Origin: Photobacterium sp. TLY01
GTDB taxonomy: Bacteria > Pseudomonadota > Gammaproteobacteria > Enterobacterales > Vibrionaceae
Assembly (NCBI RefSeq): GCF_021432065.1
Contig: NZ_CP090364.1
Coordinates: 1,874,601 to 1,938,600, forward strand
DNA length: 64,000 bases
Direction: 5' to 3'
The position numbers were made by a program, and so were the translations under genes. Under the pieces are notes generated by a model. It saw only the letters and a list, made by a program, of their open reading frames with translations. It ran no database searches and was not told the origin of the DNA. This document shows, piece after piece, positions 1,200 to 62,789 of the stretch. The first letter of the stretch is position 1, and every line of letters starts with the position of its first letter.

Positions 1200-4100
1200 T
1201 TAACGATTGGGCGCAACTTCGCGTTGCTTCCAGAGCTTGAAAATGGCTGGTAACACCAGCAAGGTAAGGAGCAAGGCAGACGCCATGCCGCCAATCATGG
1301 GCGCGGCAATCCGCTGCATGACTTCCGAGCCAGTCCCCGAGCCATACATGATGGGAATTAAGCCGATGATGACGGTGATGACTGTCATCATCACAGGGCG
1401 GACACGCAGCCCGGCCCCTTCCCGGATGGCGTCGGTGAGATCCTGTGCCTGCAAGTGATTTTGCTGCTCTTCTGCCTGTAATTTACGCCCGTGCCAGGCC
1501 TGATTGAGGTACACCAGCATGATGACGCCAATCTCTACTGCCACGCCTGCCAATGCGATAAACCCGACGCCGACTGCAATCGAGAAGTTGTATTGCAGCA
1601 GATACATCAGCCAGACGCCGCCGACCATCGCCAGCGGCAGCGTGGCCATGATGACCAGCACTTCCCCTACCCGACGGAAGCTGAAATACAGCAGCAGCAT
1701 AATGATCATCAGCGTGACAGGCGTGACCAAACTCAGTTTGGCTTTTGCCCGCTCCATGTATTCATACTGCCCGGACCAGGTCAGTGAATAACCCGCCGGC
1801 AAAGACAATTCTCTTGCAACCCGGTCTCTGGCTTCGGCCACATACGAGCCCAGATCGCGATTTTCAATATCCACAAACACCCAGCCGTTGGGACGCGCAT
1901 TTTCTGTTTTGATCATCGGCGGGCCGTCTTCATAGCGGATATCGGCCACATCGGCGAGGGCAATTCGTGCGCCGCTGGGCGTGACCAGGGGCAGATTCTG
2001 CAGTTTCACCACAGAATCCCGGTAATCCTGTGGGTAGCGGACATTGATCGGGTAACGCTCCAGCCCCTCAATGGTTTCACCAACATTCATGCCGCCAATG
2101 GCAGAAGCAATCACCTGCTGAACGTCCTGGATATTCAAGCCGTAACGCGCCGCCTGTCGGCGCTTGATATCAATGGTGACATAGCGCCCGCCGGCAACCC
2201 GCTCGGCATAAACCGACGCCGTGCCCGGAATCGCGTTGAGAATCGGCTCAATCTGCGCGCCTACCTTCTCAATCACTTTCAGATCCGGCCCGGCAATCTT
2301 GATCCCGATTGGGGTTTTAATCCCGGTCGCCAACATATCGATGCGGGTTTTTATCGGCATTACCCAGGCATTGGTCAGGCCGGGAAACTGCACCAGATCG
2401 TCGAAGGTTTTCCGCAGTGACTCCGTTGTCACACCTTCACGCCACTGATCACGTGGTTTGAGTTGAATCACGGTTTCTATCATGGTCAGCGGCGCCGGAT
2501 CGGTCGCGGTTTCCGCCCGGCCAATCTTGCCCCACACGGTTGCCACTTCCGGTACGGTTTTGATCAGCTTGTTGGTTTGCTGTAGCAACTCCCTTGCCTT
2601 GCCAATTGAAATACCCGGATAGGTAGTTGGCATGTACATCAGATCTCCCTCATCCAGCGGCGGAATGAACTCACTGCCCATTCTGGAGGCTGGATAGTAG
2701 GCTGATGCCAGCAGTGCCAGCGCCACTACAATCACGGTTTTAGGATAACTCAGGCTGAGATTCAGCAACGGCCGATACAAAGCCACCAGCCCACGGTTGG
2801 CCGGGTTTTTGTGCTCCGGCAACACCTTACCGCGAATAAAGTAACCCATTAGAACCGGCACCAGCGTAATCGCCAGTCCGGCGGCGGCGGCCATCGCATA
2901 GGTTTTGGTGTAGGCCAGCGGCGAGAACATCTTGCCTTCCTGTCCTTCCAACGCGAACACAGGTACAAAGCTCAGGGTAATAATCAGCAACGAGAAAAAC
3001 AAAGGCGCCCCGACTTCTTCGGCCGCTTTGCCGATTACCTGCCAGCGGTTCTGATCGGTCAGTGGTGTGCGCTCGATGTGCTTGTGGACATTTTCAATCA
3101 TCACAATCGCGCCATCGACCATCGCCCCAATGGCAATCGCAATCCCGCCAAGCGACATGATATTGGCGTTGATCCCCTGCCAGTGCATCACAACAAAGGC
3201 CGCTAAAATACCGACCGGCAAACTGATCGCAATCACCAGAGATGAGCGAAGATGAAACAGAAAGATGGCGCAGACAATCGCAACCACGATGAATTCTTCC
3301 GCCAGTTTCTGCCACAAATTCTCAACTGCGGCGTTAATCAGGGTGGAACGGTCATAAGTGGGCACGATCTCAACACCATCCGGCATGCTGCGCTGCAGTG
3401 CTGCCAGCTTGGCTTTCACCGCATCAATGACCTGACTGGCATTCTCGCCATAGCGCATCACAATCACACCACCGACCGCTTCCCCTTCACCGTTCAGCTC
3501 TGAAATACCGCGTCGCATCTGCGGGCCAATATTGATATCGGCGATATCTCCCAACAGCAAGGGCGTACCCTTGGCTGTGGTTTTCAATGGCAACGCTTTG
3601 AGATCGTCAACGCCGGTCAGGTAACCACTTGTTCTGACCATGTGCTCAGCTTCAGCCACTTCGATAACCGACGCACCGACTTCCTGATTGCCCCGCTGAA
3701 TGGCGCTATTGACCTGCTGGAGCGTTAAACCGTAAGCGCGCAGCTTGGCTGGATCAATCTGTACCTGGTACTGCTTGACCATGCCGCCGACTGTGGCCAC
3801 TTCTGACACGCCGTTGACGGTTTGCAGTTCATACTTCAGAAACCAGTCCTGCAGACTGCGCAGCTCAGCAAGATCGTGCTGGCCGGTTTTATCCTGCAGC
3901 ACATAGCTGTACACCCAGCCCACGCCGGTCGCGTCCGGGCCCAGAGTCGGTTTTGCATTTGCCGGCAACTTAGGCGCAACCTGGCTGAGGTATTCCAGCA
4001 CCCGCGAACGTGCCCAGTACATGTCGGTACCATCGTTGAAAATGATATAAACGTACGAATCACCAAAGAAGGAATAGCCGCGAACCGTGTCAGCACCCGG

Positions 4101-45833: not shown

Positions 45834-46700
45834 GTGCTGCTTGAAGGTGTGGAAACATTACTGGTACTCGCAAAAGAAGGCACCATGAGCCGTGCCGGCA
45901 GCCGTTTGTACATCAGTCAGAGTGCTGTGAGTAAACGCATCGCCAGGCTTGAACAAAAGTTAGGCAAAAAGCTGATTGTGCCTGATGGCCGGAATATCAA
46001 ACTAACCCCGGATGCACAGGCACTCGTGGCGCAGGTTGGTCCCGGTTTCAATGAATTAAAAGGCCAGATCTTCGATCAGCAGGCGATTCGGGATCATACC
46101 CCGATTATTCTGGCCTGTTCAGAAACCCTGGTGGCCGGTTATCTGGCCGCCCTGATGGGGCGTTTTCTGAAAGACGATCCGCATATCGTGCTCAATACCC
46201 ACCACACCCCTGTCATTGTTGAGCGCGTTCAGGCCGGTGATGCGACCGTCGGATTTTGTGCCGGTCATCTGCCCGCCCATCACGGGCTTCAGGCAAGGCA
46301 TTTATTTGATGAGCCTTTTACTGTGGTCTTCAATCAGCCATTGACTGAGACACCAGAGTGCCTGCTGACCAATGATCTCAGCAATCCGGCCAATGCCTAT
46401 CAGGCGGGCTTACTGCAGCAGGCGGGGATCCGTCCTTTGATGGAAATGGACTCCTACACTGCAGCCGCAAAACTTGCGCTGGGCGGCGCAGCCCCTGCAC
46501 TGGTGCCGCTTTCTGTGGTGAAGACACTGGCAATCAAAGAACAGGATTGCCAGCATTTTGCGTTTCTGGATGGTTTTGTCCGGCCCATTTATCTTTGCTA
46601 CCGCCAGCACAGCTACCGCTCAGAGCGCGTGAAGCACCTTATTGAAACCATTGCGGATTTTGTTCCCACAGCAGCTTTATTGCCATCAGCATCGACATAA
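45834..46700 (+). CDS. LysR-family regulator
   Basis: Protein of 288 residues starting at GTG (GGGA upstream). HTH: LLVLAKEGTMSRAGSRLYIS and SAVSKRIARLEQKLGKKL. The effector domain is divergent and His-rich in the middle (NTHHTPV, GHLPAHHGLQ). Its 3' end overlaps the 3' end of the convergent TSUP gene by 62 bp, which suggests a stable gene pair and possibly a transporter target. The ligand is unknown. Confidence 0.88.
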   Translation: MLLEGVETLLVLAKEGTMSRAGSRLYISQSAVSKRIARLEQKLGKKLIVPDGRNIKLTPDAQALVAQVGPGFNELKGQIFDQQAIRDHTPIILACSETLVAGYLAALMGRFLKDDPHIVLNTHHTPVIVERVQAGDATVGFCAGHLPAHHGLQARHLFDEPFTVVFNQPLTETPECLLTNDLSNPANAYQAGLLQQAGIRPLMEMDSYTAAAKLALGGAAPALVPLSVVKTLAIKEQDCQHFAFLDGFVRPIYLCYRQHSYRSERVKHLIETIADFVPTAALLPSAST

Positions 46701-47409
46701 TCACCACCATAGGACGGATGAGCTTTCGTCCGTTGCTGACCACCACTTTGGCCCCGATTCTGGCGCCGATGAATCCGCCGACCGCCATCACCAGACCAAT
46801 CTCCCAAACCGGCAGGCCTGCCATGATAAAAAACATCAGTGCCGCAATATTCGAGGTGAAATTGAGCACCTTAGTGCGAGCAGTCGCCTCCACGATACCC
46901 AGACCAGCCAAAGTCACAAAACAAATGGTAAACAGTGAGCCGGTCCCCGGCCCGAAGAAGCCATCATAAAAACCAATGCTGGTGCCGACAGTAAAGGCAA
47001 AAAGTCCGTCAGAAATCTTCGCTTTCCCGCCGTGAATACTGGCCTGGGGCGCGAACAGAAAATACAGAGAAATGACAATCAGCAAGGCAGGAATCATGGT
47101 TGTTAATACGCCTGCATCAATCACTTGTACCAGTTCCGCACCCACGGCTGAACCGACAAAAGTACAGAGGATTGCCAGCACCATTTGCCTGAGATCGACC
47201 AGGCCGTTACGCACAAAATAATAGGTCGCCGAAAAACTGCCAAAGGAGCTTTGCAGTTTATTGGTCGCCAGCGCCTGCGTGGGAGGGACGCCTGCTGCCA
47301 GCAAGGCCGGGACTGTCAGCAGCCCGCCACCACCGGCAATCGCATCAATAAAGGCAGCCAGCCCGGCCACGAAGAATAAAATCGCGAGAATGTCTAAAGA
47401 GATGTCCAT
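46639..47409 (-). CDS. TSUP (TauE/SafE) family transporter
   Basis: Inner-membrane protein of 256 residues with about eight TM helices. Two family repeats are visible: DAIAGGGGLLTVPALLAAG near the N terminus and FYDGFFGPGTGS in the middle. Members export or import sulfite, sulfonates and organic acids. The substrate is unknown here. A paralogue of the same family lies at 55.4-56.2 kb. It is convergent with, and overlaps, the LysR gene. Confidence 0.9.
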   Translation of the reverse strand: MDISLDILAILFFVAGLAAFIDAIAGGGGLLTVPALLAAGVPPTQALATNKLQSSFGSFSATYYFVRNGLVDLRQMVLAILCTFVGSAVGAELVQVIDAGVLTTMIPALLIVISLYFLFAPQASIHGGKAKISDGLFAFTVGTSIGFYDGFFGPGTGSLFTICFVTLAGLGIVEATARTKVLNFTSNIAALMFFIMAGLPVWEIGLVMAVGGFIGARIGAKVVVSNGRKLIRPMVVIMSMLMAIKLLWEQNPQWFQ

Positions 47410-47839: not shown

Positions 47840-48682
47840 TTATGCCTGATGGCGACGTCTGTACTGACGGCTTAGCAAGCCCAGTAAGCCGATCCCCAGT
47901 AAAGCTAAGCTGCCAGGTTCAGGAACCGGGGTTGGCGGATCGCCACCATCCGGATCAAACGCCACCTGGCCATGTGCCCACTCTTCATACCCTGAATCAA
48001 ACTCAGAGAAGCTGGAGTAGAGAACAAAATTGTTCTGACCGACGGGAATATTAGCGAAGTAATTCTCATTGATTAAGAACACCAAATCCGTCGCACCGCT
48101 ACCCGGGCCGTTGTTATTCTTACTGGTATCCAGACGCACTGAGTTATCCAGGAAAGCACCGTTGTCATCCCAGTCCAGACTCCAGAGCAAAGTACTGCTC
48201 TGCAGGTTGGCAATATCATCCACATTCTGACTGGCAACACTGGTTGAGAACAGCATCAGGTTCGTCAGTACAATCTCATTATTATTCCCGGTTTCATTGG
48301 CATCAAGAATAAAGGCGTAGAAACCATCCAGCGACTGCAGCTCAGAAAACGTTACATCACGGGTAAAATTACCCGACGGATGCTGATCCATCATATAGGG
48401 ATCTGTCGTACTGGTATTAAAACCTTCCTGGATACCGTTTCCATCCCCGTTGCTGTTCCCATTTCCGTTACCATTCCCACCTTCCTGAACTCGCAGGAAT
48501 GATCCCAGATTGCCCGATCCCGCCCCGGTTTGCTGGTAAACCGCAACATAACTGTCACCTTGGTTGCCCATCGTCAGAACGGCCTGATCCACACCCGGTG
48601 CAGCTAAATTGATTTCAGCCGCGTTGGCCGAAACACTCAGACAACACAGTGCTGTCATAGTTAAACCACTGAATAACTTCAT
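47840..48682 (-). CDS. PEP-CTERM exported protein with Gly-Asn repeat
   Basis: Protein of 280 residues. Signal peptide (1-21, ANA-AE), a low-complexity segment of alternating Gly/Asn (GGNGNGNGNSNGDGNG, about 68-83), a beta-rich body with Asp/Asn-rich loops, and a C-terminal sorting tag PVPEPGSLALLGIGLLGLL followed by RQYRRRHQA. It should be processed by an exosortase/PEP-CTERM system encoded elsewhere. The function of the body is unknown; a matrix or adhesion role is inferred from the tag only. Confidence 0.87.
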   Translation of the reverse strand: MKLFSGLTMTALCCLSVSANAAEINLAAPGVDQAVLTMGNQGDSYVAVYQQTGAGSGNLGSFLRVQEGGNGNGNGNSNGDGNGIQEGFNTSTTDPYMMDQHPSGNFTRDVTFSELQSLDGFYAFILDANETGNNNEIVLTNLMLFSTSVASQNVDDIANLQSSTLLWSLDWDDNGAFLDNSVRLDTSKNNNGPGSGATDLVFLINENYFANIPVGQNNFVLYSSFSEFDSGYEEWAHGQVAFDPDGGDPPTPVPEPGSLALLGIGLLGLLSRQYRRRHQA

Positions 48683-52012: not shown

Positions 52013-53353
52013 CTAAAAAGGGAACATTGTGTTCATTTCTGACTGGAGTAACACATTTAGTTTATGTAACCCTTCCTCCAGTCTCTGATCTGTAGACACT
52101 GACATCAACGATAACCGCACATGCCCGGACTCATTCGCATCAGGGCAAAAGTAACTGCCGCTACTCACGATTACATCGCGATTCTTTGCTTCCATGACAA
52201 ACCGGTCCGAGCGCCAGCCTTCGGGTAATGGGAGCCAGATGTGATAACCTTCACTTTCTCTGAATGACGAGCTCAATATCGACTTAGCAATCTTCTGTCT
52301 GCGCATCGCAGTGTGTTGTTGCTGACTGGCAAGGCTAAAAGCACTGCCGCTGGCAATCATCTCAGAGGCTGCAATGTAATTAAGTGGTGAAGAGAGCCAG
52401 ATATTAGCTCGGATGTGAGCATTAATCATCGTGACTTGACTATTAGGGACTTTAATGAAGCCACAACGTAACGCAGGACTGATTGCCTTTGACAAACTCG
52501 TAATGTGGAAGCATTGTTCCGGGATGAAATTGCAGATTGCAGGTATTGTTTCTATGTTCAAAAAACCATAGATATCGTCTTCAATCAACCACACGTTAGA
52601 TCCGGCAATAACCTCAGCAATTTGCTTGCGTCTTTCGTAAGGCATTGTTATCCCAGTTGGATTCTGATGTGAAGGGATGACAACCACCAACTTTGGCTTA
52701 TCTTCCCAAATCACAGCCGCCAGGCTGTCAGGGCACATACCATGATTATCCAGCGCTATGCCGACGACTCGCCTACCTAACAAGCTGCCAATGGCCAAAA
52801 TACCTGGGTATGTCAGGGTTTCAACAGCAATCGTATCCCCAGGTTTGGTCAAAGCGATGATGAGCAGAGATAAAGCGTGCTGGGCACCATCAACCAGCAA
52901 GGTATTCTCAGGTGTACCCTTTTCAAGCCCAAATCTGGCTGCCCACTTAACGCCTGATTCCCGATGTACCTTGTGCCCTGAAAACTCTGAATAACCAATC
53001 AGGTCTGCACTAAATAGCTTCGACACATTCGTGAAGGCTTCCTGTAGCACAGGTACACTTTGACTCAGGCAAGGCTGGAGAAGAGAAAAGTTAAAACACT
53101 CTTCGTGCTCAGGAGCCTGTATGACCTGCCCCAATGCAGTTTTACCCTTTACAAAAGTTCCCCGCCCGACAAAGGATTCTACGCAATCTTTCTCAGCGAG
53201 CATCTTATAAGCCTTAGCGACTGTCGCCGGTGTTGTATCCAGTTCTTCCGCTAACTCCCGATGAGTTGGCAGCCGTGAATTAGGGGGATATTGGCCACTT
53301 TCGATTCTTGATTCTATGGCACTGGCAATATGCCTGAATTTGGTTTCACTCAC
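52013..53353 (-). CDS. MocR-type (GntR-aminotransferase fusion) regulator
   Basis: Protein of 446 residues. GntR winged HTH at 1-70 (YPPNSRLPTHRELAEELDTT, ATVAKAYKMLAEKD), linker, then a fold-type I aminotransferase-like domain (about 95-440). PLP contacts are intact: NPTG (231-234), DD near 260 with Y262, and the Schiff-base lysine K289 in HITSLSKAISPALRCGF. MocR regulators sense PLP adducts with amino acids or similar amines, so the divergent operon probably handles an amine or amino acid. It lies 151 bp from the oxygenase gene. Confidence 0.92.
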   Translation of the reverse strand: MSETKFRHIASAIESRIESGQYPPNSRLPTHRELAEELDTTPATVAKAYKMLAEKDCVESFVGRGTFVKGKTALGQVIQAPEHEECFNFSLLQPCLSQSVPVLQEAFTNVSKLFSADLIGYSEFSGHKVHRESGVKWAARFGLEKGTPENTLLVDGAQHALSLLIIALTKPGDTIAVETLTYPGILAIGSLLGRRVVGIALDNHGMCPDSLAAVIWEDKPKLVVVIPSHQNPTGITMPYERRKQIAEVIAGSNVWLIEDDIYGFLNIETIPAICNFIPEQCFHITSLSKAISPALRCGFIKVPNSQVTMINAHIRANIWLSSPLNYIAASEMIASGSAFSLASQQQHTAMRRQKIAKSILSSSFRESEGYHIWLPLPEGWRSDRFVMEAKNRDVIVSSGSYFCPDANESGHVRLSLMSVSTDQRLEEGLHKLNVLLQSEMNTMFPF

Positions 53354-53431
53354 ACCAAAACTCCATGCAAGGACAACTCAATCTATAAGGTGCCTAGTGT
53401 AATGACAAATTGGGAAAATTCAAATTACACA

Positions 53432-53460
53432 TTGACATATGTCATCAAAGACAATTAAAT
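53432..53460 (+). promoter_or_regulatory. Candidate promoter and operator of the oxygenase operon
   Basis: TTGACA (53432-53437) is followed after 17 bp by TTAAAT (53455-53460). The -35 overlaps a perfect 12-bp palindrome TGACATATGTCA (53433-53444), a natural place for regulator binding in the MocR/oxygenase divergent region. Confidence 0.5.
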
Positions 53461-53504
53461 TATCTTATGCAACAAATGACACAACAGTTAATTGGAGAAA
53501 TTGA

Positions 53505-54524
53505 ATGCTAGAAATTGAGTCACATTATCAAGATGTTGAAAGTATTAAAGAGCTTTTCATTCCCTATGAGTCAACCAGAAGACTAAAAATCGCGTTTTCA
53601 GGATTGCGTTTAACGGATGATCAATCATGGCTCAATACCAAAACTTGGTTAGGTCATATGGTTAAATCATGTTTACCCAGTAATATTGCAAGACAAATTC
53701 AGTCATTCAAGGACTGTAATGATGTTAATGCATTAATAATCAGAGGATTACCACTCGATGAAAATTTAGCCCCAACTCCTTACCAAGGTTATGTTGAACC
53801 ATCAAAGCTTCCAGTAATTAGTGCAATTAATATTGGCATATATCATTTAGCAGAGATTGAGCCAATTTCGTTCCAAAACGAGAATAATGGATTTCTATTT
53901 AGACATGTCGTTCCTTCGCTAAATAGTCGAAATGACAAATCTTCACATGGCTCACTCCATACCTTTGGTCATCATGTCGATAACCCGGATCTACCCTTAA
54001 GCTGTGAGAAAATTTCCGATAAAAGTGGTTGTCCAGAATTCTTATCATTAATGGCAATTAGAACTGATCTCCGTGTTAGGTCTAATTTCGTTCTACTTGA
54101 TGATGTTCTAAACCAACTGAGCTCTGGCGTGGTAAAACAACTTACAAAACCACATTTTGAAATAAGCCGCCCAGATTCATTTTCACAAAGTACCACTTCG
54201 GTGCTGCCACTCATTGTTTACTCTAAATCTAATCAAGTTTATTGCAGATATGACAAAGAAAACACAACACCGCTCACTAAAGAAGCTGCTGCTGCACTAG
54301 TAATGTTCGAAGCAAAACTGCAAGCACCTGAAATGAAAAACTCAATTTTGTATCAACCCGGTGATTTTCTATTGATCAAAAATCAGAGGCTAATGCACAG
54401 CAGGGAAGGTTTCCTACCACGAGATGACGGCACTGACCGTTGGCTTATCCGATTATTTGGAATGAGCTCTTTAGAAAGAATCGTCCCAGTCAATTCAACA
54501 GATAACCACATCGGTAAAGATTAG
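53505..54524 (+). CDS. Fe(II)/2-oxoglutarate oxygenase, clavaminate synthase-like amino acid hydroxylase family
   Basis: Protein of 339 residues of the TauD/TfdA fold. Iron triad: H157 and D159 in FGHHVDNPD, and H298 in NQRLMHSREGF. R312 and R316 (DRWLIR) lie 14 and 18 residues after the distal His, the spacing seen in clavaminate synthase, VioC and AsnO and longer than in TauD (11). GDFLLIKNQRLMHSR is typical. This group hydroxylates free amino acids, often at C3. The substrate cannot be read from sequence. The gene is clearly AT-richer than its surroundings, suggesting transfer. Its stop is 9 bp before the dehydrogenase gene. Confidence 0.82.
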   Translation: MLEIESHYQDVESIKELFIPYESTRRLKIAFSGLRLTDDQSWLNTKTWLGHMVKSCLPSNIARQIQSFKDCNDVNALIIRGLPLDENLAPTPYQGYVEPSKLPVISAINIGIYHLAEIEPISFQNENNGFLFRHVVPSLNSRNDKSSHGSLHTFGHHVDNPDLPLSCEKISDKSGCPEFLSLMAIRTDLRVRSNFVLLDDVLNQLSSGVVKQLTKPHFEISRPDSFSQSTTSVLPLIVYSKSNQVYCRYDKENTTPLTKEAAAALVMFEAKLQAPEMKNSILYQPGDFLLIKNQRLMHSREGFLPRDDGTDRWLIRLFGMSSLERIVPVNSTDNHIGKD

Positions 54525-54533
54525 GATATTAAA

Positions 54534-55430
54534 ATGAAAGGAAAAAAAATTGCATTCATTGGCCTAGGTGTTATGGGATATCCGATGGCAGGACACCTGT
54601 CTGATTCAGGACACCAAGTCACTGTATATAACCGAACATCCAGTAAAGCAGAGAAGTGGACTAAAACGTTCAACGGGAAATCCGCCTCAACACCTCAGGA
54701 AGCCGCTCGCTTCAGTGATATCGTATTCATTTGCGTAGGTAATGATGATGATGTCAGAAGTGTAATTTACGGCGAAACGGGCGTTCTTTCCTCACTAAAA
54801 CCAGGCAGTATTGTCGTTGATCACACCACAACTTCCGCCGTGTTAGCCATTGAGCTTGCTAACGCCTGCAAAAATAAAGGGATACATTTCATTGATGCTC
54901 CGGTTTCTGGTGGTCAGGCTGGCGCAGAAAATGGGACGTTAACAGTGATGTGCGGTGGTGAACAATCCACTTACAATCACATCACTGAGGTGATCAGTGC
55001 TTACTCTAAACACTCCGTTTTACTGGGTGGTCATGGCCAGGGACAACGCTGCAAAATGGTTAACCAAATTTGCATCGCCGGTATTTTACAAGGACTCAGC
55101 GAGGCTCTGCTGTTGGCAGAAAAATCTCAGCTTGATATCGAGCAAGTGACTAGTGCGCTCAATCATGGTGCAGCGGGATCATGGCAGATGGCAAACCGGG
55201 CTGTCACAATGTCATCAGATCAATTTGACTTCGGCTTTGCTATTGACTGGATGCGCAAAGATTTACTTATTTGTCTGAATGAAGCTGAAAATCATGGTCT
55301 TACGCTACCAATGACACTGGATGTTAATCAACGTTATCAGCAATTAATACAGCAAGGACTTGGCCGTATGGATACATCTGTATTAATCAAGTCTTACGCC
55401 AATTCACAAAAGCCAGCACTGATCGCGTAA
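54534..55430 (+). CDS. Beta-hydroxyacid dehydrogenase family (3-hydroxyisobutyrate dehydrogenase-like)
   Basis: NAD(P)-dependent enzyme of 298 residues. Nucleotide motif GLGVMG (10-15), coenzyme-selectivity segment YNRTSSK (Arg after Asn, suggesting NADP), substrate loop DAPVSGGQAGAENGTL (S124) and catalytic lysine K174 in GQRCKMVNQICIAG with N177. It oxidises a beta-hydroxy acid or reduces the aldehyde/ketone. In this operon the natural substrate would be the hydroxylated product of the oxygenase. It is separated from its neighbours by 9 and 11 bp. Confidence 0.9.
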   Translation: MKGKKIAFIGLGVMGYPMAGHLSDSGHQVTVYNRTSSKAEKWTKTFNGKSASTPQEAARFSDIVFICVGNDDDVRSVIYGETGVLSSLKPGSIVVDHTTTSAVLAIELANACKNKGIHFIDAPVSGGQAGAENGTLTVMCGGEQSTYNHITEVISAYSKHSVLLGGHGQGQRCKMVNQICIAGILQGLSEALLLAEKSQLDIEQVTSALNHGAAGSWQMANRAVTMSSDQFDFGFAIDWMRKDLLICLNEAENHGLTLPMTLDVNQRYQQLIQQGLGRMDTSVLIKSYANSQKPALIA

Positions 55431-55441
55431 AGGAGTGACTT

Positions 55442-56224
55442 ATGGATCTTATGATGAATGACCTATCTTTGTGGGTTATTTCAGCCCTTATGGTCTCAGC
55501 ACTAGCCGCTGGCTTTATTGACAGTGTAGCTGGCGGCGGTGGATTGATACTTGTGCCTTCTTTCATACTCGCAGGGCTTCCGCCGCAGGTTGCTCTCGGC
55601 CAAGAAAAAATTGTCAGCACACTGGGTACGATTGCAGCGATCCGTAACTTTGTACAAAACAAAAAAGTTATCTGGACCGCAGTGGCTACGGGTATACCTG
55701 CAGGGCTAATTGGAGCCTATGCCGGAGCACAGGCCATTCTGTATTTTGATCCAGACACCATTGGCAAAATCATACTGGCAATGTTGCCATTTGGTATTCT
55801 TCTCTCTTTTATCCCAAAAAGAGATAAGGGAGTCACGGATGAAAAGGTCAATCCTGCCGTCATCTTATTCGGCGTGCCGAGTGCCGTCTTCGTGATTGGC
55901 TTCTATGATGGCTTTTTCGGTCCGGGAACAGGTAGTTTTCTTATTATTGCGCTGCATTATATGCTGCGGTTTGACTTAGTATCAGCTTCTGCAACCTCTA
56001 AGCTGTTTAACTTTTCGTCAAATATCGGTGCTTTGATCGCTTTCGTGGTCTCTGGGAACGTCCTGTACCTCCTCGCCATCCCTTTAGTGATCATGAATTT
56101 GCTCGGTAACCATCTGGGAAGCGTGTCCGCGATGAAATACGGGCCAACTATGGTACGCAGAACCCTGTCATTATCGCTCACGATTCTGATGTGCTCTCTG
56201 GGATATAAGTTTCTGGTTGCTTGA
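55442..56224 (+). CDS. TSUP (TauE/SafE) family transporter of the oxygenase operon
   Basis: Inner-membrane protein of 260 residues, about eight TM helices, with both family signatures: DSVAGGGGLILVPSFILAG and FYDGFFGPGTGS. Likely an exporter (or importer) of the pathway's substrate or product, possibly an organic anion. It is a paralogue of the protein at 46.6-47.4 kb but clearly distinct (for example ALGQEKIVSTLG versus ALATNKLQSSFG). Last gene of the operon. Confidence 0.9.
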   Translation: MDLMMNDLSLWVISALMVSALAAGFIDSVAGGGGLILVPSFILAGLPPQVALGQEKIVSTLGTIAAIRNFVQNKKVIWTAVATGIPAGLIGAYAGAQAILYFDPDTIGKIILAMLPFGILLSFIPKRDKGVTDEKVNPAVILFGVPSAVFVIGFYDGFFGPGTGSFLIIALHYMLRFDLVSASATSKLFNFSSNIGALIAFVVSGNVLYLLAIPLVIMNLLGNHLGSVSAMKYGPTMVRRTLSLSLTILMCSLGYKFLVA

Positions 56225-56233
56225 CTGTACGCA

Positions 56234-56289
56234 CCTGACTCAATAAAAAAACCAGCATGTTTCCATGCTGGTTTTTTTATTGAGTCAGG
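56234..56289. terminator. Bidirectional terminator with 26-bp perfect inverted repeat
   Basis: Arms at 56234-56259 and 56264-56289 are perfect complements with a TTTC loop. The inner part is CCAGCATG/CATGCTGG flanked by seven A and seven T residues, so it works for the TSUP gene and for mukB, whose stop is 3 bp beyond. The outer CCTGACTCAAT arms extend the match beyond what a terminator needs. Confidence 0.9.
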
Positions 56290-56291
56290 CT

Positions 56292-59200
56292 TTAGGCCGG
56301 ATCTAACTCGAGTTGCCTGCCTGGTTCCGGCTCACCTTTCGGTTCCTGGCCAAAACCACGTAAACCGACTACATGGACATGTTCCCGATCTTTAAAGATC
56401 TTACGCACAAGCTTGTAGGTGGTCCCTTTCTCCGGGCTGATGTTCTCTGGCGCAGCAATCAGCAACTGCATGTCCAGACGATCACACAGCTCAAACAGGG
56501 TCGCGATAGACTTGGCATCCAGTCGCGCGGCCTCATCCAGGAACAGCAGACGGCATGGGATAATATCTTTCCCGCGCAGACGGCGGGCTTCTTCTTCCCA
56601 GCTCTGCACAACCATCAGCAAGATAGCCTGACCGGTACCAATGGCCTCACCGGTTGACAAGGCGCCCGATTCCGCCTGCAGCCAGCCATCTGTACCACGG
56701 TTCACTTCAATGCTGAGCTCCAGATAGTTCCGGTAATCCAGCAGTTCCTCACCCAGGGTTTGCGGTGAACGCTGACCCATATCAATATGAGGGTTCAGTC
56801 GCTGGAACAGCTTGGCAATGGCCTCAGAGAAGGTCAGACGGTTATTGCCGAACAAATCCTGATGCTGATCCTGCTGATCGGCCAGGCCCGTCAGCAGGGA
56901 TTCATGGGTTTCACGCACGTTCACGTTCAGACGCACGCCTTTCACCTGACCAAAACTGATGTTCTGCAGGCCCTGGTTCAGCATCTTGATACGGTTTTGC
57001 TCCCGCATAATGGTTTTACGGATGATATTCGCCACGCTGTCTGAGCTGATCGCCAGACGCTTTTCACGCGCCGTCAGCTCTTCAGTCAGGCGGGCCAGCT
57101 CAACTTCCATCTCTTCGATGGCCTCAACCGGATCGTCGGTACGGATAATATCGTGACGAATACGCTCACGCAGATGCTGGTACACCGCGATGTAGAACAG
57201 TACTTTTCGTTCCGGACGTGATACGTCTTCGGAAGCACGCAACGCATCACGCAGCGTTTCATTATCGGCCACGGCCAGGCGTAGTGCCCCGAGCGCTTTG
57301 TCAGACAGCGAGCGCAGTTCGTCGGCCGTCATGTAGGCCATTTCGCGGCGATGCAGGCGACGTTCAACATCACTCTCCCGTGCCAGACGCAATACCGCGC
57401 ACCAGCCCGCTTTGGTATTCACCACCAGGGTGCGTAAGTCGATATAGTCTTTTTCGACCTTGCGCAGGCGCTTCACCAGATTGCGCATTTCCATATCCAG
57501 TGAGGTGGTGGCTTTTTCCAGCTCGCTGCGACGATTACGGGAACTGTGAAGACGTTCATGCAGCTCATCACGACGCAGGCGCGCGCGCTCTTCCGCCTCA
57601 AGATCGGCGCGGACACCCAGCTCCTGCAGCTCGCGCTCAAATTCCTGTACGGTTTCCTGCTTGGCCTGATGTGAGCTCTTCAGCGACGCCAGCAACTGGT
57701 TGTACTGGTTGCTCTGCGTCTGAGCCTGTTTCAGGCTCTCACGGTGACGGGTACGTTCACGTTCAGCCGTTTCCAGTTTGGACTTCAGTTGCTCGTTAAG
57801 CTCAGAGCTCTTGCTCAGCAGCTCAACGGCATCGGCGTAGCCAAAGTGGTGGCGCCGTTCGACCAAATCGGCCAGGGCAAAAATCTGACTTTTCAGTGTC
57901 TGAAGTGCCTGGTCCGCATCCTGATACTCAGCCTGCATAGCGTCAAACCGCTCAGGGTCTGTATCCAGTGCTGACACCAGAGTTTCCAGCTCTTCCAATG
58001 CCTTACCGTGGCGCTCAAGATAATGACGCGCTTCATCAATCTGGGAGAGCTGCTGCTCCACCTCTTCAAGACGGGCGGCGATCGTCTCATCTTCTAACAA
58101 GGCCACGACCGGCTGCAGTTTGGATAACAGCGACAAACCTTCACGTGCCGCGGTAAGCTGGCTGCGCTGTTGCTGCTCAGTGGCTTCGGTGTCGTTCAAC
58201 TGACGCTGAATCTGATTACGCTTTTCACGGGCGGCGCGAATTGCTTCTTCCGGATCGGGATCAAAAGCGACCGCCAGGTGACTGGCCACAAAAGCATTGA
58301 AGCTCTGGTACAAACGCTGAAGCTTCTGGGCATCAAAAGAGGCCTTGGCGTGATCCTCCACAATCTGATCACGCTCTTCGCGTAAAATTGCCAGACGCTG
58401 CTCGCGGGCGGCCCGGCCAAACAGCGGTACTTTCGGGAAACGGGAATAACGCAGCTGCTGCTGATTCAGCTGAACACACACTGCCCCTTCCAGTTCGTCG
58501 ACCACAAAACTGCTGTCATCAAACGAATCCGCTTCGCCTTCGATGATATACAGATCGTCCGGACAGTCATCCAGCCCGGAGAGTTTCTCGCGGACAGAAT
58601 CAATATCCTGCACCACGATGGCATGGCGTGCAGGGCCGTACATAGCACTGAAATACGGCGCATCATCAATCGTGATGTCGTCGTAAATCTCAGACAGTAA
58701 GGTACCGCCCAGCACATCGGCAATCACACGCAAACGGGAATCATCGCTACCGCCCGGCAAGGCCAGACGTTCGATTTCATTTTCAACATTTTGCTTGCGC
58801 ACCGCCAGTTTGTCTCTGGTGTGAATGGCTTCACGTTCAGACTCCAGCGTCTGGTGCATGGCCGTCATCACGGCCTGACTGTCGTACAGATCCTGGCCAG
58901 ATTGTTCAGCCAGTTTTTCCAGCGCATCACTGGCGGCAATCCAGGCCGGTGCTTTGCCTTCCTGCAGACTGATGTCTTTTGACAGTTGCTGTTCCTGACG
59001 GCGCAGTTCACTGCGTTTTTCCACCAGATCAGACTGATTCTGCTCCAGACTTTCCAGAGTCGCTTCATGACGGGCCTGTTCTTCAGCCAGTGCCAGTTCG
59101 CCATCAATCTCAACGGCAAAACGTTTCGCATAAGTGTCTGCCAGATCCTGGGCCTGACGCTGGTGACGCATACTGCGCTCCAGATCGCGATACTGCGCAC

Positions 59201-60752
59201 TCAACTGTTCACTGCGCTGAGCAATCATTCGCAACTCGCGGCCTGTCGCCAGTAATTCACGGGCTTTTTCGCCTGCCGAGGCTCTTTCCACTGCACCCGC
59301 AATCGTCGTCACTAGCTGCAGGCCGCGCTCAAATTGTTTGGCAGCGGCCGCTGACATATCCAGCTTGTGTTTCAGTGCCAGCAGTGCCGTGGTTTTACTG
59401 TCTTGCTGTTGTTTCAGGCTGGACAGCAGTTCAGCGGCATTTTCCTGATCCAGCGTGTCATCGGCCGAAATCTGACGGGCCTTTTCCAGCGCCTGAACGG
59501 CTTGCTGGTACTGTAAAGCGCGGGTTTGCTGCGCATCCAGCGCCTGCTGATAATCGGCCAGCTGAGATTTCAGGCTGTCGACCTCGTCTTCACTGAGCAT
59601 GGCCTGTTCTTCCGCCATGGCCAGTTGCTCGGCCGCTTCTTCAACAATCATGACCTGCTCTTCCAGACGCTCAGTCAGCTCCAGAAGATCATCACGGTAA
59701 CGCTCTATTTTTTCCTGCTGGCGAACGGCCGTCTGAACCAGTTGCAAGTGATCCGACGCCGCCTGATGATCCTGCTCCAGCGCGCTCTCGTTCTCTTTCA
59801 GCTCATCGAGCTCTTGCGACAGGTTGCCGAACACCTGCTGTTGATCAATCAGGCTCTGGCGCGAGCCGAGCAATTCGCTGCGCAGGCCAAGTGTCTGTTC
59901 CAGCTTGACACGGCGCTCATTGGCGTGACGCATGTAATCGGCCGCCACATAATTGGTCGCTTCGGTGATCAGATGTTTAAACAGGTCACGATCGCTCTGG
60001 GTAACCTTGATGGCTTCGAGCGTCATGCGGTTTTCACGCAGCGCCGCTTCCATATCCTGGAAGGCTTTCTTCACACCAGAGTTATGCGGCAGCAAGTAAT
60101 CGCGCAGCGAGCGTGTAATGGCACTGGAAATACCGCCGTACAAGGATGCTTCAATTAAACGGTAGAACTTAGACCGGTCGGTACTGTTACGCAGCTTCTT
60201 CGGCAAGACGCCGAATTCAAACATCTGCGTGTGGTAGTCGGTGACAGAAGAGAAGGTTTTAAACTGCACCCCTTCGTACTGAGACACAGCGTCTTTCACT
60301 TCATTGATCTGGCGCACCCGTGCCTGGTTCTCAGACAGAGTTTCCACCAGAATATCCGTCGGTTTCACCGCTGAAGGCAAACCTTGGATCAGGAAAGGTT
60401 TGATGTCGACTTTTTTGTCCCGGCCCGCAACCTGCTGCAGTTTCACTGCAAAAATAATGCGCTGGTTCTTGGAGTTAACGATATCAAGCGCAGAATAACA
60501 GGCGCCTGGCTTGAGCTTGCCGTGTAATCCCTTATCACGGGAAGCATTGGAGCTTCCCGCTTCTGTGGTATTCCGAAAATGCAGCAGGCTCTGATCCGGG
60601 ATCAAAGACGTGATAAACGCAGCCATGGTGGTGGATTTACCCGCACCATTACCGCCGGAAAGTGTGGTGACCAGTTGGTCAATATCAAATGTCCGGGCAA
60701 AGAAGCCGTTCCAGTTAACCATGGTCAGAGATTGGTACTTACCGCGCTCCAT
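56292..60752 (-). CDS. mukB: Chromosome partition protein MukB
   Basis: SMC-like condensin ATPase of 1486 residues, exactly the E. coli length. Walker A GNGAGKS (34-40), long coiled coils (about 290-640 and 800-1090), central hinge (about 650-780, [20 protein letters not shown]), ABC signature region [19 protein letters not shown] and Walker [14 protein letters not shown] near 1400. Dimers with MukE and MukF organise and segregate the chromosome. The ATG shares one base with the mukE stop (TGATG). Confidence 0.97.
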
Positions 60753-61480
60753 CAGGCGTGTTCCTCTTGCTCGGTTTCTTCATCACTTGCAGCGTCATTG
60801 GCTTGTTCTTGCTCAATCAGGCTGGATTGCGTCGGCAATTGCTGATGCACAATCGCTTCGCCGTCACGGATCAGGCGAAGCTGCGCTTCCCGGATATCGT
60901 CACTGTTCCGCACATCCGCACCAAAGCGGAACACCGCTTCACTGATCCGGAATTTACCGCTGTCACCCAGCATGATCACCATGCCCAGACGTCGCATACG
61001 GCGCAGGGAGGTTTTGACTTTATCAAACAGCTTTTCGCGATCCAGATCAGAGCCTGACGCCCGGTTGGTCACCAGCTTCATGAGTTTCTTTTCATCGGCG
61101 AGCGACAAAAGCTCATCAAACAGTTCCTGATTGGTAAATATTCCCTCATGGGCCAGACGTTCAGGGCTCAGGTACAGGAAGCACAGCACTTTTCCGACCA
61201 GCATATCGAGCTCAGACAGCACAGAGCGGCCAATCAGCGAGGTAGAGCGGGGACGCAGATAGAAGAAGCCTTCCGGTGCCCTGACCAGTTCTGCGTTATA
61301 GCGCTTGTAAAACAGCATCAGGTCCTGCTCAAACTCCAGCAAAAACGCATGATTATCCAGATCTTCGCTGGACACATGGCGACCCGAGCGCAGCGCATTA
61401 TCCAATGCCGGGAACAAGGGGTTGGCAATGGCTTTGGCCAGATTCTCTGGCATAAATTCTTCAATATTTGTCAATGACAT
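60752..61480 (-). CDS. mukE: Chromosome partition protein MukE
   Basis: Winged-helix KITE subunit of 242 residues (E. coli 234). [34 protein letters not shown] and [20 protein letters not shown] are characteristic. The C-terminal tail is acidic (EETEQEEHA). It binds MukF and the MukB heads. Its first 20 bp overlap mukF. Confidence 0.96.
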
Positions 61481-62789
61481 TGGCTTGTACCTTGGCTCCG
61501 TAGTCGTTGATCAGTTCCCAATCAGGCTGAACCGCACTGAAATCCGACTCGGAATAACCGAGCCTGACGGCCTGATCGACAATAATACGTGCTAAATCAA
61601 AATGTTGTGCGTGTGAATGCTGACTCAGGTATTCCCGAATCAAGCTGCCAAGATTGATGGCTGCGCCCTGAGATTTATGGATATCCAGCATTTCTGCAAT
61701 TCTTTCACTGAGCTGATCGTTCACCTGACTCAGTTCTTCAAATTCAAGGGTTTCCGGCACGATACCTGTCACTTCATCGTCGCGCAGGACCAGCTCTTCA
61801 TCACGCATGTCAAGCAAGCGGTCTGCATCGGCGTAAGTGAGCTGCCATGGTGCGTCGAAAAACTCGGCGACCGACTGGCGCAAACGCTGGCTGAAGGCAC
61901 GGTTTTTGTCCATATCAATGGCGGTACGGATAAACTTATGCACATGCCGGTCGTAGCCGATCCACAAGTCGATTGCCTGCTGGCCCCAGTTGATGATCCG
62001 GTCCAGCTTTGCCTGCAGGGAGTACACCATGCCTTCGACATATTCCAGCTCCAGATCCGAGGTCGTGCTTATTGCATCCTGAATGGCAAGCAGCTGGGTT
62101 TGCAGCTGATCCCCGGCGGCTTGCAGGGTGTCCTGAAGCTCGCGCAGGGTACTGGAGGTTTCATTGAGAAGACTTTCACAGTTGGTGATAGCCGCACGCC
62201 AGTCCTGATTGAGCAGTTCAGCAATGTCTTCTTTCACCTGCTGTTGCTGCTCATCCATGGTGCGCTGGTTCAGATCGATCCGATCAAAAATCTCGGCCAC
62301 TGAATATTTCAGTACCGCGTAGACGTTGATTTTCCAGTGCTGTTCATCACCGCCTTCATGGGCAGCCACCGCCGCTTTATTCAGCTCATCGGCCACCATC
62401 GCCAGTTGTATCGACAGTTTCATCGATGAGAACTCACGATGACGGGCGTAGTAATCGGCAATCCCCAGTGCCAGCGGACTGAGCCGGTAGATACTGGCCC
62501 CTTCTGTCATCTCACTGGTAAAACGGGAAATCAGACGCTGGCGGACCAGTTCGTTGATTGCGTTATTGGCGCGGAAAACCAGGGTGTCTTTTGACTGATC
62601 AAACATATCGCTCACGATTTTGAACGCATCGACCAGCTCACCTTCCCCCAGTTCCTCATCCAGACGCTCGCCGCTTAACACGGCAATCGCCAATAAAAAT
62701 GCCAGTCTTTCCGTTGGCAGGTTAAGGGCGAATTCATGTTGTTTCACCCAGGTCACCAGCTCAGGAACAGTCTGGGATTGGTCACTCAT
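61461..62789 (-). CDS. mukF: Chromosome partition protein MukF (kleisin)
   Basis: Kleisin of 442 residues (E. coli 440). N-terminal winged-helix dimerisation domain ([40 protein letters not shown]), a helical middle domain, an acidic linker and the C-terminal domain that bridges MukB heads. AAGGAC lies before the ATG. First muk gene of the operon, 50 bp after cmoM. Confidence 0.97.

Follow-up and report, generated by a model that had tools for sequence, protein, structure and literature searches.

Why would a regulator, a dehydrogenase and a transporter be kept together after the oxygenase that heads their cassette has been lost? The question is raised by a locus in a 64,000-nucleotide stretch of Photobacterium sp. 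TLY01 (contig NZ_CP090364.1, positions 1,874,601 to 1,938,600, in a genome of two contigs), the whole of which is called the window here. The gene for a MocR-type regulator (52013-53353, minus strand) is divergent from a plus-strand run of three genes, which encode a Fe(II)/2-oxoglutarate (2OG) oxygenase of the clavaminate synthase-like amino acid hydroxylase group (53505-54524), an enzyme of the HIBADH/beta-hydroxyacid dehydrogenase type (54534-55430) and a transporter of the TSUP (TauE/SafE) family (55442-56224). The gaps are 9 bp between oxygenase and dehydrogenase and 11 bp between dehydrogenase and TSUP. Open reading frames (ORFs), coordinates, strands and gaps are all as given in a first-pass annotation of this DNA, which placed the four genes in a single linear pathway. 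We favor, at a probability of roughly 0.4, a different reading: the oxygenase would add a beta-hydroxyl to a free L-amino acid, with tryptophan the most likely substrate, and MocR, the dehydrogenase and TSUP would form a MocR-sensed protection module, whose genes many relatives keep after losing the oxygenase.

The nearest match to the window oxygenase (96% identity) is in a genome of the same genus (G011). A pattern-based scan with the oxygenase family alignment, whose patterns reach fairly close relatives only, was run on a species-level collection (84,980 genomes, one for each species) and yielded 41 oxygenase loci, 28 of them in Pseudomonas. As placed with tblastn anchors, TSUP came directly after the oxygenase at 39 of the 41. 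A divergent MocR was found at 34, including a weak partial match in a Burkholderiaceae metagenome-assembled genome (L036), and a dehydrogenase at 34. The latter was of the HIBADH type at nine loci and a YdfG-like short-chain dehydrogenase/reductase (SDR) at 25, and no locus had both. Co-occurrence of the four genes in other genomes, as had been anticipated, is therefore a property of the cassette. The loci without TSUP were L036 and one in Amycolatopsis (L045); at L036 another membrane protein (2298-3491), which we take to be BenE-like, follows the oxygenase in the place of TSUP. The window transporter itself scored 143.7 bits against PF01925 (gathering score 32.6), and we predict that it is an exporter.

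Loss of cassette genes was surveyed at HIBADH-type loci only. A gene was called intact when its ORF reached at least 90% of the length of the window protein and gave one match, so that L042, with an ORF of 252 aa, was scored as broken. A search of the window organism's family with TSUP (324 genomes) found 27 loci in 26 genomes. The oxygenase was intact at seven of these, a fragment at ten and undetected at first at ten, although relics were recovered at three loci of the last group (L191, L196 and L199). MocR was intact at 23, the dehydrogenase at 21 and TSUP, by construction, at all 27. An oxygenase-profile search of the same family (329 genomes), which does not select for TSUP, found 20 genomes, 16 with cassette-type loci and four with distant relatives only; TSUP was intact at every one of the 16 loci with a cassette-type oxygenase, and the oxygenase itself at seven. 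The TSUP of L141 ends at residue 246 of 260. In total 36 HIBADH-type loci, some of them close kin, were tabulated, with the oxygenase intact at 12 and not intact at 24. None of the 12 loci with an intact oxygenase had another part broken. Among the 24 oxygenase-null loci, MocR was intact at 19, the dehydrogenase at 18 and TSUP at 24, and all three were intact at 16; at these the candidate sensor, handling and pump genes have outlasted the candidate producer gene.

Breakpoints in the oxygenase vary among loci. On a tree of MocR and TSUP from 31 loci (the five others had a broken or absent MocR), Fitch parsimony required at least ten changes in oxygenase state, or 16 losses when gains are disallowed, counts that are approximate because some branches are weakly supported. 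The dehydrogenase was also intact in 13 of the 16 null clades. Residues expected to matter for function have been retained as well: the pyridoxal phosphate (PLP) lysine, Lys289, in 19 of 19 intact MocRs and Lys174 in 18 of 18 intact dehydrogenases at null loci. The ratio of nonsynonymous to synonymous substitution rates (dN/dS) was 0.035-0.149 for intact MocR, dehydrogenase and TSUP in three pairs of loci that appear to share one loss each (L193/L194, L145/L146 and L196/L199, leaving out the frame-shifted L196 MocR). Thus at null loci, which occur in the window organism's family and a few others, MocR, the dehydrogenase and above all TSUP are mostly intact and under purifying selection. Because the oxygenase has been lost repeatedly while the other three genes were mostly kept, and the reverse was seen at none of 12 loci, those genes are independent of the oxygenase in cis. 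The proposal of one linear pathway that requires all four genes runs against this pattern, in which the oxygenase is repeatedly deleted and MocR, its operator, the dehydrogenase and TSUP mostly persist.

The oxygenase belongs where it had been placed, among the clavaminate synthase-like amino acid oxygenases. It matched the TauD superfamily of Pfam (39.5 bits, residues 222-317) and has the facial triad HxD/E...H with two arginines beyond the distal histidine that characterizes clavaminate synthase-like 2OG oxygenases. The residues named earlier, H157-V-D159, H298, R312 (+14) and R316 (+18), are all in place and do not vary across 28 aligned sequences, namely the window protein and 27 relatives at 34-68% identity. 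The +14/+18 pair corresponds to His295/Arg309/Arg313 of CmnC; according to PMC9513391, Arg309 and Arg313 hold 2OG together with Thr174, Arg313 and Ser138 contact the substrate carboxylate, and Asp247 and Asp249 bind the substrate guanidino group. The AlphaFold2 model (mean predicted local distance difference test score 91.1, predicted template modeling score 0.90) had AsnO (2og7, E 5.8e-26) as its best Foldseek match, followed by KDO1, NapI, OrfP, CmnC and VioC. With these enzymes it shares the fold, the triad, the +14/+18 arginines and aligned substrate-pocket residues, but it was only 18-23% identical in the 50 best structure matches. Six NCBIfam models matched at E≤0.001, the best being GntD (81.3 bits, cut-off 345), clavaminate synthase (64.7, cut-off 450) and VioC (53.2, cut-off 418.6). 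The window protein thus falls far below all three curated cut-offs; unlike the enzymes matched by structure, it is housed in a MocR/dehydrogenase/TSUP cassette. It is likely that it would hydroxylate a free amino acid. Members of this group that act on free amino acids are most familiar from gene clusters for antibiotics.

The dehydrogenase matched NAD_binding_2 (182.7 bits) and NAD_binding_11 (104.8 bits) and has the motifs GLGVMG from residue 10 and NRT from residue 33. Together with Lys174, which aligns with the lysine of 3w6u that reads methionine in 3w6z, these place it in the HIBADH superfamily. It fell below the equivalog cut-offs of NCBIfam for tartronate semialdehyde reductase (238.6 of 340.75 bits) and HIBADH (162.7 of 291.6 bits). 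This version of the cassette occurs in Photobacterium, Vibrio, Celerinatantimonas, Parendozoicomonas, Marinomonas, Halomonas and Endobugula, and the SDR version in Pseudomonas, Serratia and Deefgea. The nearest model to the two SDRs tested was YdfG (363.6 and 321.1 bits, cut-off 411). Because two unrelated dehydrogenase families replace one another, it is the chemistry rather than one particular protein that the comparison suggests has been kept. A precedent is found in the phenylserine operon of Pseudomonas syringae NK-15, in which, as its description in PMC2963168 has it, one SDR and one HIBADH-type enzyme are encoded together and both convert phenylserine to 2-aminoacetophenone and CO2 by way of a beta-keto acid. 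Since both families there oxidize an aromatic beta-hydroxy amino acid, beta-hydroxylation followed by beta-oxidation gains support, and the idea that a beta-hydroxy acid dehydrogenase is the partner of the oxygenase, put forward in the first-pass annotation, is strengthened by the swap. That operon also has a transporter and a divergent regulator. It differs from the window cassette in that these are MFS and LysR proteins, not TSUP and MocR, in that both dehydrogenases stand together where the cassette has one or the other, and in that the six ORFs described in PMC2963168 include no oxygenase.

The regulator has the winged helix-turn-helix domain of GntR (57 bits) and an aminotransferase-like PLP domain (Aminotran_1_2, 81.4 bits), with Lys289 in the motif SLSK; it is a MocR protein whose PLP site is intact, as had been said. 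Its closest curated NCBIfam model was the ectoine regulator EhuR (NF052286), at 354.3 bits below the cut-off of 480. EhuR and EnuR form one group. The ectoine regulator EnuR senses the diaminobutyrate compounds ADABA and DABA, as outlined in PMC8739950, and PLP-based sensing of amino acid derivatives is a further likeness, but the window cassette has no ectoine genes. A second comparison is with the taurine regulons of TauR, which in the account of PMC5320631 pair a MocR with a TauE-type exporter and, in two Ralstonia, with TauD. In those the oxygenase is of another subgroup, and the window cassette has no taurine genes; the words Vibrio and tryptophan are absent from the main text of PMC5320631.

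A palindrome, ATTGACATATGTCATC (53431-53446), lies between the divergent genes and overlaps a -35-like TTGACA; the promoter-like pair to which this hexamer belongs ends at 53461. Such pairs are in themselves about as common in the sequence as in shuffles of it (9 versus 7.7). With at most three mismatches, the consensus ATTGACATATGTCAAT was present 77-107 bp from the MocR start at 32 of 33 loci having MocR or part of it, compared with 65 such sites, the MocR-proximal ones included, in the 548,319 bases of all 36 loci. The exception was Halomonas L043 (best site seven mismatches), and apart from it the palindrome was present at the oxygenase-null loci that still have MocR. In the SDR clade a related 16-mer, ATTGA(A/G)TCGATTCAAT, occurred with at most three mismatches in 24 of 25 MocR-oxygenase intervals, all but that of Deefgea. 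Inverted repeats are one usual structure of MocR sites, according to the main text of PMC5320631. Its conservation establishes the site; that MocR is what binds there, and which effector it answers to, is a prediction.

From these data we read the oxygenase as a dispensable producer and MocR, dehydrogenase and TSUP as a putative inducible unit that handles and exports its product. The oxygenase would hydroxylate a free amino acid at its beta carbon, as its family and residues indicate. The product, or a compound derived from it, would be harmful or reactive and would leave the cell. It may react with the PLP of MocR, which would act through the ATTGACATATGTCAAT palindrome that overlaps the -35 box. 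The HIBADH-type or SDR enzyme would then oxidize the beta-hydroxyl to give a beta-keto acid that decarboxylates to an aminoketone, in the manner of phenylserine, and TSUP would expel substrate or product. Because many relatives keep the sensor, dehydrogenase and pump with the oxygenase broken or gone, the product is likely to be something from which cells need protection. When the first step of a route is lost, the genes for the later steps should decay with it, and since these mostly do not, MocR, dehydrogenase and TSUP probably act on something that can also reach the cell from outside; they may work on, or against, a compound that other cells release as well.

Which amino acid is used? Genes for tryptophan synthase, trpB and trpA, adjoin the cassette at four of the 41 loci, in four genera: Parendozoicomonas (L010), Deefgea (L013), Endobugula (L042) and Halomonas (L043). 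In Deefgea the order on one strand is oxygenase-TSUP-trpB-SDR-trpA. All four cassette TrpBs scored above the cut-off of TIGR00263, the two TrpAs tested were above that of TIGR00262, and the PLP and active-site motifs of TrpB looked ordinary where a string search found them. All four genomes have a further trpB elsewhere, in an operon of the truA-trpF-trpB-trpA-accD type (by eye from ORFs) in the genomes of L010, L013 and L042 and near a truA-like ORF in Halomonas. At least two TrpBs above the cut-off were found in six of ten genomes searched, and four cassette-bearing genomes had a single TrpB. Because a second trpBA stands at four loci in four genera, tryptophan is the leading candidate for the substrate; the extra trpBA may supply the substrate or raise tryptophan against an antagonist. 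Beta-hydroxytryptophan is known from echinomycin, where, according to PMC3578932, a P450 makes it on carrier-bound and not on free tryptophan.

Extra trpB or trpBA genes also occur away from the cassette in Vibrio hepatarius, Marinomonas communis and Parendozoicomonas (L152, L153 and L154); those of V. hepatarius and M. communis were excluded from the count above as not linked to the cassette. The idea that the cassette TrpBs form one neofunctionalized clade was dropped, as they are 54-64% identical to one another, about the same as to ordinary TrpBs.

Other genes stand near relatives of the oxygenase. A protein of the tRNA-editing family PF04073 follows TSUP at five Pseudomonas loci (Pfam on one, tblastn on the others); as to whether this protein is an extra copy, PF04073 matches numbered four to six per genome in four Pseudomonas genomes versus three and four in two others. 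On a Klebsiella plasmid (L081, 8833-11151) an oxygenase of 37.8% identity is followed by TSUP and a GNAT N-acetyltransferase, near a peptidase-domain ABC transporter and an HlyD gene; 40 Klebsiella plasmid records had a match, and one of them was examined. Two Vibrio plasmids (L078/L079, 2197-7153, minus strand) have, beside the cassette, divergent genes for an MFS protein, a PF14518 haem-oxygenase-like iron enzyme, a hypothetical protein and an ATP-grasp protein, possibly a biosynthetic cluster. At L157 and L158 a distant oxygenase relative is clustered with genes of carbamoyltransferase-like, ATP-grasp-like and SDR type (tblastn and by eye), and L157 has a LysE gene (PF01810) as well. Distant oxygenases were further seen beside a LysE gene (L138), a PF03547 transporter (L144) and a similar-looking transporter (L159, by eye). 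This suggests that pairs of oxygenase and exporter are a wider theme. PF04073, GNAT and the other exporter families (LysE and PF03547) near relatives are compatible with a role in protection; they prove nothing.

Several observations weigh against a protection module. Eight of the 24 null loci had lost or broken at least one further part, and several branches around the losses are weak (support 58-83). The former fits a linear endogenous route of beta-hydroxylation, oxidation and export, whether catabolic or biosynthetic, in which oxygenase-less strains are merely decaying, as do the tight gene order, the shared operator and the dehydrogenase that accompanies the oxygenase at 34 of its 41 loci. 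We nevertheless think such a route rather unlikely, since the three other genes are all intact at two-thirds of the null loci, low dN/dS persists in the pairs that apparently share one loss, and one genome (G268) carries, besides a full cassette, an oxygenase-free MocR-dehydrogenase-TSUP copy on a different contig. Also adverse to a module is that TSUP alone was kept at two of the 27 family loci (G503 and G628), and that TSUP and the dehydrogenase could have a primary role of their own, apart from the oxygenase; the TSUP family is more familiar in connection with anions. If that primary role were, for example, with an environmental hydroxy acid, the oxygenase would be a loosely attached accessory and not a producer, which would accord with its recurrent loss and with the retention of MocR and TSUP alone in G603. 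Yet TSUP stays with the oxygenase at Klebsiella L081 and L161 and Pseudomonas L018-L021 and L046, where MocR and the dehydrogenase were not found beside them, and because the pair persists there, oxygenase and TSUP are the tightest pair of all; we regard this alternative as unlikely. A sharper form of the protection module is a minimal island of small-molecule weapon and shield, in which the oxygenase makes an antimetabolite for export from free tryptophan or an amino acid related to it, and the dehydrogenase and TSUP under MocR give stand-alone immunity that outlasts the producer gene. The second trpBA and the PF04073 proteins and N-acetyltransferase near relatives would then be further layers of self-protection, though in this strong form the proposal strikes us as unlikely.

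The choice of tryptophan is likewise contested. trpBA adjoins only four of 41 loci, and at two of these (L043 and L042) the oxygenase is broken or shortened. Moreover, D250-x-E252 of the window oxygenase aligns with the guanidinium-binding Asp247/Asp249 that PMC9513391 reports for CmnC, and with the D-x-D/E of VioC, KDO1 and clavaminate synthase, and it would accommodate a basic side chain no less readily than indole. The same module acting on arginine, lysine, ornithine or 2,4-diaminobutyrate is therefore possible, if doubtful, and EhuR as the closest curated MocR, with the ligands of EnuR described in PMC8739950, points the same way. Such a substrate leaves the second trpBA in four genera unexplained. 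Position 252 is Glu in 27 of the 28 aligned sequences, but in wider relatives it is His (L042, L081, L155 and L161) or Ala (L018/L020/L046); because the residue varies in this way, the substrate cannot be read from it, and a pocket for basic amino acids was dropped as a decisive argument. If the genes were simply a TauD/TauE pair, with sulfite released from a taurine-type sulfonate, that would explain why Pfam names TauD and TauE. NCBIfam includes a taurine dioxygenase model, and none was among the six matches of the oxygenase, which were led by GntD, clavaminate synthase and VioC; the nearest folds were amino acid oxygenases. On these family and fold results the sulfonate reading was rejected and is very improbable.

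Downstream of the cassette a perfect inverted repeat with runs of A and T (56234-56289), read directly from the sequence and absent from the scanner's list, fills the gap before the next operon and is likely a two-way terminator. It separates the cassette from three minus-strand ORFs of 1486, 242 and 442 aa (56292-62789), by size and order presumably a mukFEB condensin operon. Outside the cassette the window has a second TSUP gene (46639-47409, minus strand; PRK10621 model, 312.7 of 383 bits), a paralogue that we assume to be YfcA-like, adjoined by a LysR-like ORF (45834-46700, by eye). A secreted-looking protein of 280 aa (47840-48682, minus strand) ends in VPEPGSLALLGIGLLGLLSRQYRRRHQA, which we take for a PEP-CTERM-like tail.

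The cassette had been called undescribed, and we too found no description in word searches of open-access literature; most subscription journals lie outside that scope, as do the supplements of PMC5320631, which list MocR regulons of unassigned role and where an in-silico listing is possible. Its parts are all from known families, and the arrangement, the dehydrogenase swap, the link to trpBA and the pattern of loss appear to be new. What emerges is a compact, regulated cassette, present in Photobacterium, Vibrio, Marinomonas, Serratia, Pseudomonas and others, in which two non-homologous dehydrogenases are interchangeable. It could give a clade of MocR regulators its ligand and a clade of TSUP transporters its substrate. 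Since the candidate producer has been shed so often and sensor and pump have mostly stayed, producers and protected non-producers may be engaged in an ecological game around one metabolite.

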